From assembly GCA_944325635.1 (NCBI GenBank), contig CALVBD010000010.1:1-37653 (forward strand): a stretch of 37,653 bases of DNA, given 5' to 3'. Under the pieces are notes generated by a model. That model searched no databases and was not told the origin of the DNA. It was given only the letters and a program-made list of their open reading frames with translations. The DNA is from Candidatus Gastranaerophilales bacterium. GTDB taxonomy: Bacteria > Cyanobacteriota > Vampirovibrionia > Gastranaerophilales > Gastranaerophilaceae. The position numbers and the translations under genes are program-made. Positions within the stretch are counted from its first letter, which is position 1; each line of letters starts with the position of its first letter. Shown piece by piece: positions 5,727 through 37,420 of this stretch.

Positions 5727-6704
5727 ATGAGTACAAACTTTCAGGCAAAATTACTCACTGAAAATGAATATAAATCCTTTGAAAGCGTTTATAATGACTT
5801 TAGGGAAAGAGCTAAACGCGAATATAAATTTGAACTTGAACCTCTGGATTATAAAGGATTTATTGACGCTGTAAGAAAAGAACTGATACAGTGCATCGTT
5901 CTTCTGGAAAACAGTATTCCGACAGCATTCCTTATATACACGACCTCAATCTCAGAGGCCGTTGAACTGAATATTATCCATTGTTACAATATGGAAAATA
6001 TAGAAGAACGCAGCCGCTATTTAATAAAAGAATTTCTAAAAGAAACTGAGGATGAACGAGAAGATAAAGTTGTATGTTACCCTATGCTCGGTACTCAGAA
6101 AAATCTTATTCATGAAATAGCCAAATACGGATTTAAATTCATCGGAATAGTAGTATTGCGGTTTATGATGTTCGGCACAAATTCAAAAGAAATATTTCAA
6201 ATGTATAAGCCTGAACCGCTCCCGTATGAATATACTATAACGGAATGGGATAACAGATACTTCAATGACGCTGTAAAAGTTGTTAACGAAGCATTCGAAA
6301 AAAGTGCAGATGCGTTGTTTGATCCGCGCTTTAAGACAATTGAAGGCACAAATGATATTATCCATAAAATTGTTGAAAATGTTTATGCGGAATTTTTGCC
6401 GGAAGCAACAACCGTTCTTCTCTATAACGGCAGACCTGTGGGATTTTGCTTTATGAACCTCACAGGCGGACAGATTGCAAATATTCCGATTTTCGGACTG
6501 GAAAAAGAACATCAGGGCAAAGGTTTTTCAAAAATTATGCTTGCAAACTCGTTGAAAAAACTTATTAACCTGGCAGAAACAGGAAAACGCCCGATAACAG
6601 AAGTAAACACTACAACGGAAACTAATAATTTTCAGGCATTGAAACTATACAGACACCTCGGGTTTAAAGAGGATTATAACTATCCGCAGGCGTATCTGGA
6701 TTAA
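5727..6704 (+). CDS. GNAT-family N-acetyltransferase
   Basis: 325 residues. The C-terminal part (about 165-325) has a clear acetyl-CoA-binding motif A in GLEKEHQGKGFSKIML and the downstream NNFQALKLYRHLGF that closes GNAT folds. The N-terminal part (about 1-150) may be a second, degenerate GNAT domain, as in two-domain acetyltransferases, but shows no intact motif A. The start is supported by AAGGAATT 12 nt upstream. It follows ribBA by 38 nt and may be co-transcribed. The substrate is unknown. Confidence 0.75.
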   Translation: MSTNFQAKLLTENEYKSFESVYNDFRERAKREYKFELEPLDYKGFIDAVRKELIQCIVLLENSIPTAFLIYTTSISEAVELNIIHCYNMENIEERSRYLIKEFLKETEDEREDKVVCYPMLGTQKNLIHEIAKYGFKFIGIVVLRFMMFGTNSKEIFQMYKPEPLPYEYTITEWDNRYFNDAVKVVNEAFEKSADALFDPRFKTIEGTNDIIHKIVENVYAEFLPEATTVLLYNGRPVGFCFMNLTGGQIANIPIFGLEKEHQGKGFSKIMLANSLKKLINLAETGKRPITEVNTTTETNNFQALKLYRHLGFKEDYNYPQAYLD

Positions 6705-6723
6705 AAACAAGAAAGAAGATAGT

Positions 6724-6777
6724 ATGAAAATGCAGACTATGACTGAATTACACATAGGGGGGGGGGGGCTTCCTTAA
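6724..6777 (+). CDS. Short upstream ORF containing a 12-G tract
   Basis: ATG at 6724 behind an AAGAAAGAAG purine stretch opens 17 codons that run through twelve consecutive G residues (6757-6768) and stop at TAA 6775-6777. Losing one G, or gaining two, would put it in the frame of the downstream prepilin, which is open from 6758 to its own ATG at 6851. It may be the true start of that gene in another phase. The G count may also be an assembly error. Confidence 0.4.
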   Translation: MKMQTMTELHIGGGGLP

Positions 6778-6850
6778 ACGGAATTTTTCTCGGAAACGGT
6801 TTTTAAGCAAGTATTTTACATGGTTATTTAACGAGCGTTCGGCTTTTTTC

Positions 6851-7639
6851 ATGTCGTTTTTCAATAAGAACGCTTTTCGGATTAGAAATAGAGCGAACGG
6901 TTTTACATTAGCAGAAGTTTCTTCCACACTGTCCCACGGAAATTATAAATTCGCATTTACTCTGGCAGAGGTTTTAATAACACTTGGGATTATTGGTATA
7001 GTTGCTGCTATGACGCTGCCAACACTTATACAAAAACAAAACGATGCCGCGATTATTGCAAGTTTAAAGAAAAATTATTCCATACTTTCGCAAGCTCTGG
7101 TAAAATCACAACTTAAGCTTGGCTTTTTTGAAACATGGGATATTGATACCTCTGGCAGCAACCCTGAAGAAGGAGGCACACCTGCAAACATGAAAAATGT
7201 GTACAATGCAATAAAGCCGGAATTGAAAGTTTTAAAGGAATGCGAAGATAAAGCCGGCTGCTGGCATAAAGGTACAACAAAAACTCTCAGCGGAAAAGGT
7301 TCCGGTACTATAAGAGATTCAATCGGGATAGGCAGCGGCATCTTTATATTCAAACTTGCTGATGGAACGAATATAAGTATTGATGACTTTGCCCCAGCAA
7401 CACTCAATCAAATTGGTTCAAATTATAACAAAAGCACTTATGCCTTTTGGGTAGATGCAAATGGCGATAAAAGACCAAATACAATAGGGCGTGACATTTT
7501 CCTGTTTATCTTAACAGATAGAGGACTTGTCCCCGCTGGCATTGACCATTATACTAACTGTGATACCAAAAGTACAGCACTTTATAGCGGAGCAGCATGC
7601 ACAGCAAAGGTGCTCTCAGAGGGTAAAATTGATTACTAG
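6851..7639 (+). CDS. Type IV prepilin-like protein with duplicated cleavage motif
   Basis: 262 residues from ATG 6851, which has no SD. A class III signal is present: FTLAEVLITLGIIG at about 37-50, followed by a hydrophobic helix and a variable secreted domain with paired cysteines. Prepilin peptidase cleaves before the Phe and the helix packs into a pilus or pseudopilus. A second copy of the motif (GFTLAEVSS) lies 18 residues earlier, so the leader is unusually long and partly duplicated. The C-terminal domain has the AFWVDANGDKRPN and TIGRDIFLFIL blocks shared in style with the other prepilins here. Expression may depend on the upstream G tract. Confidence 0.75.
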   Translation: MSFFNKNAFRIRNRANGFTLAEVSSTLSHGNYKFAFTLAEVLITLGIIGIVAAMTLPTLIQKQNDAAIIASLKKNYSILSQALVKSQLKLGFFETWDIDTSGSNPEEGGTPANMKNVYNAIKPELKVLKECEDKAGCWHKGTTKTLSGKGSGTIRDSIGIGSGIFIFKLADGTNISIDDFAPATLNQIGSNYNKSTYAFWVDANGDKRPNTIGRDIFLFILTDRGLVPAGIDHYTNCDTKSTALYSGAACTAKVLSEGKIDY

Positions 7640-26046: not shown

Positions 26047-26757
26047 TTACTTTATCTTTTGGAAATAGTCGTTATCAATACTTGCAAAATACCCGCAGGT
26101 AGCACCGTTTTGAGAATCGGTGGAGGTTGGATTACAGTACTTACTCTTTGTAAAATCGTCAGTGTCCTCAATATATTGTGTTCTCCCTTTACAGGATGGT
26201 GAACCCAGCGGGCAGACCCTGTCCCCTTTATCTATAACAAATGCAAATGTATCATGCCCAATACGATTTGGTTTGTTGGAAGTTCCGTTTACGTCAAAAA
26301 ATATTATAGGATTTGATGTAGAACCCCCTGTTTCCACAATTACACTCATTCCGTTCTTCAGCTCCATGTAACCATCATTTAAAAGCCCCTCGTCAAATTT
26401 TGAACCTCCGGTAAATATATAATATTTCTTTGCAGCATAACTACCATTGCCATTTTTATTCAGGGCATGAATACCTGTAAATGCTTCCGCAAGCACTTCC
26501 GAAAATACACGATATTGACCATCCTTGCAGTAATCACTCGAGTTTGCGGTACAATAAGTGCTCTCGGTCATCATCAACTGCTGAGAGTGAAAATAACTTA
26601 CCGCATTATGGAGAAGATTAGCTGCAACTTTATACCTGGTTTCAAACTCCTTATACTTTGTTTTTTCAGTCAAAGATGGCAGTGTCATTGCAGCAACAAC
26701 TCCGATTATCCCCAGAGTTATCAAAACTTCAGCCAATGTAAATGCTTTCTGTCCCAT
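26047..26757 (-). CDS. Type IV prepilin-like protein
   Basis: 236 residues. A very short leader (MGQKA) precedes FTLAEVLITLGIIG, so prepilin peptidase would cut before Phe6. A hydrophobic helix and a 200-residue variable domain follow, with cysteines in pairs (YCTANSSDYC, CPLGSPSC, YCNPTSTDS). The block FFDVNGTSNKPNRIGHDTFAFVI is the same kind of segment found in the other three. An AGGAAGA stretch lies upstream of the ATG. The gene is alone on its strand. It is probably a minor pilin or pseudopilin. Confidence 0.8.
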   Translation of the reverse strand: MGQKAFTLAEVLITLGIIGVVAAMTLPSLTEKTKYKEFETRYKVAANLLHNAVSYFHSQQLMMTESTYCTANSSDYCKDGQYRVFSEVLAEAFTGIHALNKNGNGSYAAKKYYIFTGGSKFDEGLLNDGYMELKNGMSVIVETGGSTSNPIIFFDVNGTSNKPNRIGHDTFAFVIDKGDRVCPLGSPSCKGRTQYIEDTDDFTKSKYCNPTSTDSQNGATCGYFASIDNDYFQKIK

Positions 26758-29375: not shown

Positions 29376-29470
29376 TCACAATCTCCTAATTGTCATGTTT
29401 TTGTCGCCTATTGACAAATATATAAAGGAACAATATAATAATTTGTATGTTACATTTAGGGTACATAAAC

Positions 29471-30226
29471 ATGACAAAGAATAAATATTCAATCGGCGGT
29501 TTTACTCTCGCAGAAGTTTTAATAACACTAGGAATTATTGGGATTGTCGCTGCAATGACTCTGCCGTCCCTTGTTGGAAAATACAAAGAAAAACAGAGGG
29601 TAACCCAACTAAAAAAGGCCTACTCCATTCTAAATCAGGCATTTCTAATGGCAGTAAAAGATTATGGAACTCCCGACAACTGGGGACTTGTCCAAACAGT
29701 TACCGGAGAAGTTGATGAAGAAGGCGAGCAGATTCTTGACAACAGTGGTTCTGTCAAAGCAATGGGCATTTTGAAAAAATATATAAAGCAAAAATCATTT
29801 GCCGAAAATGAAATTATAGGTTATGTAAGATCGCTTGACGGTCGTGAAGCATGGTGGCCATGGAAAGCAGAATCCGATAAATATATATATATTGCGGATG
29901 GTACAGTCCTTGCTCAAGGCTGGATAAGCTCGACAGATTCATGTGCAAAAGGCCAGTGCGGCGACTTCTGGGTGGTTTTCCCTTCCAGAAATATGAAAAT
30001 TGGCGTTGATGTTTTTAATTTCAACTTTACCACCAAAGGTTTTGTACCGAAAGGAATGCAAAATGATACAGGATATCCTTTCCCCAAGAAATGTAGCATG
30101 ACAGATACTTCTGTCGCTGCGGATCATCAGGGACGCGGCTGTACAGCATGGGTAATTTTTAATGGAAACATGGACTATTTGCATTGCAACAATCTTTCAT
30201 GGGATGGTAATACCAAGTGTAAGTAA
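29471..30226 (+). CDS. Type IV prepilin-like protein
   Basis: 251 residues from ATG 29471. The frame from 29447 would give an atypical leader. The leader MTKNKYSIGG precedes FTLAEVLITLGIIG. A variable domain follows with paired cysteines and the C-terminal signature GCTAWVIFNGNMDYLHC, shared closely with the gene at 31756. Gene order here (speE, prepilin, rseP, prepilin) does not look like a pilus operon; each prepilin appears to be its own unit. Confidence 0.8.
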   Translation: MTKNKYSIGGFTLAEVLITLGIIGIVAAMTLPSLVGKYKEKQRVTQLKKAYSILNQAFLMAVKDYGTPDNWGLVQTVTGEVDEEGEQILDNSGSVKAMGILKKYIKQKSFAENEIIGYVRSLDGREAWWPWKAESDKYIYIADGTVLAQGWISSTDSCAKGQCGDFWVVFPSRNMKIGVDVFNFNFTTKGFVPKGMQNDTGYPFPKKCSMTDTSVAADHQGRGCTAWVIFNGNMDYLHCNNLSWDGNTKCK

Positions 30227-31676: not shown

Positions 31677-31755
31677 CCCTATATTGAACACGTTCCAAAA
31701 ATATGCTATAATAATAAATATTATTATCAACGTGAATGTCAAATATGGGGGAATG

Positions 31756-32514
31756 ATGATTAAAAGAGGTTTCACTTTGGCGGAAGTTCTTATAACACTT
31801 GGCGTTATAGGAATTGTTGCAGCAATGGTATTACCATCTGTTCTTGTACAAAACAGAGAAAGAGAGAATACCGCAAAATTAAAAAAAATATACAGCACAA
31901 TGACGCAGGCTTACACACGTGCGGTAGCAGAACGAGGAACTCCGGACTTTTGGGATTTAATGGGTAAAGATGACCCTACCGGTGCTGAAAATCTAAAAAA
32001 AATACTTTCCCCGTATTTTAACGTGAAACCTTCAGGCATAGAAGGCGAAGTATGGAGAAACGCTAACACAAGACAGCTTGATAATAGTGCAGGTCCGAAT
32101 ATCGGTGCAAGTGAGGGAAGCACATATTCTACTTTTGCTGTAGTCGACGGAATGTCGCTTGCTTTCAGAGTTGAGGATAAAGATTGTAAAGCCGTATTCG
32201 GCGATTCAAGAGCTCTTCAGAACGTCTGTGCCACATTTATTGTTGATGTAAACGGAAGCAAACATCCTAACCAGTTCGGCTTTGATATTTTTCAATTTTA
32301 TATAACAAAATACGGGCTCCAGCCTTACGGAAGTCAGTCTGATACGACATATCCGTTTGAAGACAGTTGTCAGCTTGGAAGCGACGGTTATGGCTGCGCA
32401 GCATGGGTAGTTTTTAGAGGAAATCTTGACTACCGCCACTGCTCGGATCTCGAGTGGAACGGAAAGTTCAAATGCCACGGATTAATGGATTCTAAATATA
32501 ACAGTGATTTATAA
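31756..32514 (+). CDS. Type IV prepilin-like protein
   Basis: 252 residues from ATG 31756, behind GGGGG (31747-31751); the adjacent ATG 31753 is possible. The leader MIKRG is followed by FTLAEVLITLGVIG. The variable domain carries CATFIVDVNGSKHPNQFG and the C-terminal block GCAAWVVFRGNLDYRHC, close to the gene at 29471. The two are probably paralogues made by duplication. Confidence 0.8.
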   Translation: MIKRGFTLAEVLITLGVIGIVAAMVLPSVLVQNRERENTAKLKKIYSTMTQAYTRAVAERGTPDFWDLMGKDDPTGAENLKKILSPYFNVKPSGIEGEVWRNANTRQLDNSAGPNIGASEGSTYSTFAVVDGMSLAFRVEDKDCKAVFGDSRALQNVCATFIVDVNGSKHPNQFGFDIFQFYITKYGLQPYGSQSDTTYPFEDSCQLGSDGYGCAAWVVFRGNLDYRHCSDLEWNGKFKCHGLMDSKYNSDL

Positions 32515-37346: not shown

Positions 37347-37420
37347 GGCTGGGTAGCTCAGTTGGTGAGAGCGCACGGCTCATACCCGTGAGGTCGAGAG
37401 TTCGAATCTCTCCCCAGCTA
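37347..37420 (+). tRNA. tRNA-Met (anticodon CAU)
   Basis: A 74-nt cloverleaf. Acceptor GGCTGGG/CCCAGCT; D arm GCTC/GAGC; anticodon stem CACGG/CCGTG with loop CTCATAC, anticodon CAT; T arm GAGAG-TTCGAAT-CTCTC; discriminator A. The elongator form is more likely than initiator, since the first pair is G-U rather than mismatched C-A. A CAU-type tRNA-Ile cannot be excluded. No encoded CCA follows. Confidence 0.92.

Follow-up and report, generated by a model that had tools for sequence, protein, structure and literature searches.

The window, the whole stretch of 37,653 nucleotides that was analysed, forms contig 10 in a genome of 2.01 Mb (G000) from the order Candidatus Gastranaerophilales. It carries a tract of twelve G residues within a short open reading frame, followed by a gene for a type IV prepilin. 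In the following, n is the number of G residues in a tract, and a tract prepilin is called ON if the reading frame of its leader continues into the prepilin and OFF if it does not. The features of the locus are as follows.

5727..6704 (+): GNAT acetyltransferase gene (PF13508 and PF00583), used as a synteny marker
6709..6719 (+): weak, purine-rich Shine-Dalgarno (SD)-like stretch (aagaaagaaga) 5' of the leader ATG
6724..6777 (+): leader ORF (MKMQTMTELHI-GGGG-LP, then stop), the OFF-state product at n = 12
6757..6768 (+): G12 tract; the syntenic orthologues have n = 11 (G012, ON) and n = 12 (G002, OFF)
6769..6955 (+): spacer, whose translation keeps the prepilin frame open to the cleavage-site motif
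6851..6853 (+): in-frame ATG, by direct read lacking an SD and unlikely to be a start codon (Lys in paralogues)
6902..6922 (+): first of two prepilin motifs, a degenerate copy (FTLAEVS) from the translation
6956..7639 (+): predicted mature part, type IV-pilin-like, from FTLAEVLITLGIIG on and including the stop (PF07963 N_methyl, 2.5e-07)

The G tract, its leader and the prepilin

The leader ORF begins 20 nt after the end of the GNAT gene and has 17 codons plus a stop (ATG AAA ATG CAG ACT ATG ACT GAA TTA CAC ATA GGG GGG GGG GGG CTT CCT TAA). The direct read of the letters agrees exactly with the first-pass annotation, which had placed twelve G at 6757-6768 inside this ORF. No other run of at least seven G is found in the window, where the G-heptamer matches 6 times compared with about once in shuffled sequences, and an i.i.d. 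estimate gives about 0.007 runs of at least twelve G for the whole 2.0-Mb genome. The leader and the prepilin are in register if n is 11 or 14 (also 8 and 17), and the fused frame has no stop 5' of FTLAEV, so that removing one G or adding two joins both frames, as had been proposed; with n = 12 the window has the OFF state. The purine-rich stretch described before the leader ATG is present as well, although it is weak compared with the GGAGG found at most paralogues. The SD might also pair with a CTCC 3' of the tract.

The prepilin is annotated as an ORF at 6851-7639, whereas the fused frame would give an ON product of 304 aa. Its first ATG was said to lack an SD, and the upstream sequence (gttcggcttttttcATG) bears this out. 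The residue matching this ATG is a Lys in the paralogues L033 and L082 (AFFKSF, compared with AFFMSF here). Because of both the missing SD and the Lys at the matching position, ATG 6851 is probably an internal codon, and we rejected it as the prepilin start. The prepilin motif occurs twice at 6902-6958, as FTLAEVSSTLSHGNYKFA and then as FTLAEVLITLGIIG, and a degenerate first copy is also present 5' of the motif in L089, L094 and L098, and in L216 in related genomes.

The protein has the two features of the prepilin class, a peptidase cleavage motif and a hydrophobic N-terminal helix (PF07963, 2.5e-07). A long N-terminal helix (38-90) also appears in the structure model, which is of low confidence (pLDDT 46); the model is too uncertain for a fold search. 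The genome encodes a prepilin peptidase (PF01478, G000:C4:99280-99672, 46 bits over the cut-off), and the pilin is putatively incorporated into a surface filament. Three more prepilin genes, all tractless, lie in the window at 26047-26757 (-), 29447-30226 (+) and 31684-32514 (+).

Tract prepilins as single split genes

A motif search found 89 prepilin genes in the window's genome, which also has 56 G runs of at least 8 residues. Such runs are long homopolymers just before or in ORFs beyond chance, as expected for homopolymer phase-variable genes: 39 of the 56 are followed within 500 nt by a prepilin motif on the same strand, where 0.6 would be expected. These 39 prepilins carry the tract in a conserved SD-ATG leader, and the 50 prepilins without a tract mostly have an ordinary start, with an SD-ATG and a short leader leading directly to FTLAEV. 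Counterparts of the window's leader, matching in position and similar in sequence, are present at about 38 paralogous loci of the genome, and most tract prepilins share a common leader (SD-ATG AAA ACT ATT GAT ATG ACT GGA TTT AC-G11-C).

The region between the tract and FTLAEV was translated in all three frames for 93 loci from three genomes (2156 codons). There are 3 stops in the prepilin frame, compared with 186 and 237 in the two others; one register is thus full length and the others stop early, which shows that a single split ORF spans leader, tract and prepilin. With tracts as long as in the assemblies, the tract prepilins in most cases offer no credible alternative start, indicating that the leader ATG is the start and that the tract sets the frame.

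Orthologue pairs in which both copies are OFF have a dN/dS of 0.05-0.33 at a dS of 0.3-0.9. The OFF copies are therefore under purifying selection, which implies that the genes are functional for some of the time at least. This bears on the reading that the genes are degenerate or misassembled, with a tract that stems from an error in sequencing or assembly, or with the prepilin as a pseudogene that starts at 6851 or nowhere. Homopolymers are error-prone, and one related tract (L112) is interrupted and OFF, as this reading would have it. However, the architecture recurs in 43 of 383 genomes with zero matches for a reversed-pattern control, the mature frames of the tract prepilins remain full length and under selection, and these genes, in contrast to the tractless prepilins, seldom have a second plausible start. 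We regard degeneration or misassembly as very improbable. At loci of G010 such as L153, L245 and L247, the spacers have taken up dispersed repeats (with translations such as VIAGLTRN, HPELDSGS and STLTLKSDEAREL), and the prepilin frame is still open.

Another reading is a bank of silent genes, in which OFF copies would donate sequence to an expressed pilin locus in a pilS/pilE-like manner and the G tract helps to initiate recombination. The very large size of the prepilin family and its near-identical N-terminal core would suit such a bank. Each tract copy, however, keeps its own SD-ATG leader and a full-length frame in one register, none of which a donor needs, so that the silent cassettes lacking their own 5' end that a bank would consist of are not what is seen; moreover, a single G run is not the four-run G-quadruplex motif. 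A silent gene bank is hence a highly unlikely explanation of the tract prepilins.

Tract lengths in related genomes

We compared the locus with relatives represented by one genome per species. The syntenic orthologue in the congener G012 has a G11 tract and is in frame (ON), whereas that in the congener G002 has a G12 tract and is out of frame (OFF). Both lie 3' of the same GNAT gene, and the fused frame is open in the window, G012 and G002. One locus thus has ON and OFF lengths in different genomes, across species rather than strains. The idea of the first-pass annotation, that the number of G residues switches the prepilin through the upstream start, is supported by these orthologues together with the 39 loci. 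It had named a comparison of tract lengths in relatives as a check, which gives n = 11 in G012 and n = 12 in G002, and had seen tractless relatives or stops in the fused frame as evidence to the contrary; tract and open frame are both retained here, although a tract is missing from the homologues in the congeners G004 and G009, which have an ordinary start.

Only 2 of the 39 tract prepilins in the window's genome are ON (L060 with n = 15 and L070 with n = 12), and most have n = 11, one above the ON length. Among the 43 relatives of the order, 15 of 136 tract prepilin loci are ON, where the loci include paralogues and are not independent, so that a binomial value is indicative only. Genus g7 has 64 of 76 tract prepilins at n = 10, one below the ON length. 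As the commonest tract length of dozens of loci is one G off the ON length, the repertoire is OFF by default, an extent across whole genomes that goes beyond what had been claimed from the window.

ON alleles are found in several relatives. The g7 genome G071 has 45 of 46 prepilins at n = 10, which is an OFF length for them, 11 of these tracts being C10 in the sense strand. Its ON prepilins include L346 and L347, both with n = 11, and a further one with n = 8. G033 has two ON prepilins at n = 11. In G062, a prepilin with n = 11 (G062:C3:193095, ON) can be compared with one with n = 10 (210026); the adjoining 5' regions of this pair are 98% identical over 186 nt, and the mature proteins differ (55% identity). 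The tract lengths of G188 range from 9 to 13, with a mode of 11.

The C10 tracts of G071 belong to a second leader family (MIDTKALRV-PPP-) 5' of prepilins, for example, L345 at 1287-1296. The C10-sense and G10 families have equal length and offset, and this likeness is what a mechanism acting on double-stranded DNA predicts. Nearly all tracts in G071, including those of unrelated genes, are flanked as C-G10-C. We dropped this flank as a general element, as other genera differ and have T or A 3' of the tract.

Tracts are also present in genes other than pilins, and these are mostly ON. About 12 of 15 such genes in G071 are ON at n = 10, with frames assigned by hand, unlike the prepilins of the same genome, which are OFF at equal n. 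In the window's genome, 4 of 7 non-pilin tract genes are ON, among them a Stealth-type gene (L064) at G12. L031 consists of two adjoining non-pilin paralogues (G000:C1:29972 and 30948) with the tract deep inside the gene, one OFF at G11 and one ON at G10. L034, L076 and L079 have a repeated element (gttgccgaacgtgcacgaagtgc...) adjoining short G runs, for which Rfam gave no match; the only Rfam match on the searched loci is a tRNA gene at the end of the window (37347-37420, +, RF00005).

The main objection to slipped-strand phase variation is that some genera have a near-constant tract length. The g7 tracts are near-invariant and tighter in length than those of Campylobacter, and orthologues retain n = 10 at a dS of 0.3-0.9. 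Part of this tightness may arise because metagenome assemblies report the majority of a population; if the assemblies are of this kind, such reporting would hide a minority of ON cells.

A near-constant length would also fit programmed slippage, in which a fixed tract lets RNA polymerase slippage or ribosomal frameshifting yield a small, constant in-frame share at each locus, expression being low instead of switched. The offset is nearly constant in g7 as well, orthologues combine an unchanged n with a high dS and a low dN/dS, a stop follows soon 3' of the tract in the genomic frame, and the purifying selection on OFF-looking genes would agree with low constitutive expression. Programmed frameshifting would have a fixed direction and register, whereas the offset is mostly ON+1 in the window's genus, ON-1 in g7, and both in the window's own genome, and G and C sense tracts share the same length and offset. 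The ON alleles also speak against it, as do the non-pilin genes that are ON at the same n. Fixation at n = 10 was dropped as a proof of programmed slippage in view of these non-pilin genes and the 9-13 range of G188. Finally, DNA slippage typically takes place on poly-G tracts. Taken together, we consider programmed slippage unlikely, though the best placed of the alternatives.

Proposed switching and relation to known systems

The best reading is, in our judgment, slipped-strand phase variation of a large pilin repertoire that is OFF by default, and we hold it to be probable. It accounts for the presence of the tract and its one open register, for the ON alleles, and for the observations that G and C tracts behave similarly and that glycan-type genes carry such tracts as well. 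The comparative support for prepilin switching is strong, short of proof.

According to this proposal, leader, G tract, spacer and prepilin would be one gene that is split by a homopolymer frameshift. At n = 12, ribosomes starting at the leader ATG would stop two codons past the tract and no pilin would be made. Slipped-strand mispairing during replication, with the loss of one G or the gain of two, would bring the leader in frame and yield the 304-aa prepilin, to be cut by the prepilin peptidase before FTLAEV. Single pilins might in this way be switched on stochastically and reversibly in a few cells. We infer that the length changes arise in the population by DNA slippage, and ON cells would be expected to display the pilin at the surface. 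The benefit may lie in the evasion of host, phage or immunity, or in varied adhesion.

Tens to about 100 prepilins would then be one G away from expression, each lineage showing a random few. It is conceivable, though we would not favor it, that the default length is tuned or that RNA or ribosomal slippage adds a basal mosaic, which would amount to a new combined control at the DNA and RNA levels.

The default-OFF design suggests a simple rule, by which a prepilin is expressed only where its tract departs from the modal length of the genome. In automatic annotation, tract pilins will be given wrong starts or be listed as intact genes with an ordinary start. Poly-G phase variation is mostly known from pathogens such as Campylobacter and Neisseria, whereas it appears here in uncultured, nonphotosynthetic relatives of the Cyanobacteria that live in animal guts, and on a large scale: the window's genome has about 40 such prepilins, and one relative has 130 or more G tracts. 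We found no description of pilin phase variation in Gastranaerophilales or Melainabacteria in the literature searched; type IV pilus genes are reported for a termite-gut melainabacterium, with switching unmentioned in the parts of that article consulted (PMC5877343).

Campylobacter offers the closest likeness in tract type. A PhasomeIt survey (PMC6321876) describes between 5 and 81 phase-variable genes in a genome. The commonest tract lengths there are 9G (53%) and 10G (26%), and one data set has ON/OFF proportions close to those of neutral drift. Both systems have G tracts of about 9-12 residues at tens of loci, within ORFs for surface structures in an AT-rich genome, and the frame sets the ON or OFF state. 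In contrast to Campylobacter, the main target here is a single family, the prepilins, whose tract sits in a separate leader at the 5' end. Almost every one of them is OFF while a single G away from ON, and some genera have tighter tract lengths.

In Neisseria, the pilC genes carry a poly-G tract near the 5' end and switch frame by slipped-strand mispairing. The 5' homopolymeric G tract in a pilus gene and the switching of the frame are alike, but Neisseria has one or two such pilus-associated genes, whereas the window's genome has about 40 affected prepilin structural genes and a relative has still more. The neisserial pilE/pilS system, which works by gene conversion from 5'-truncated cassettes, resembles the present repertoire in being large and mostly silent at a time. 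Unlike those cassettes, each of the tract copies described here has its own start and its own tract.
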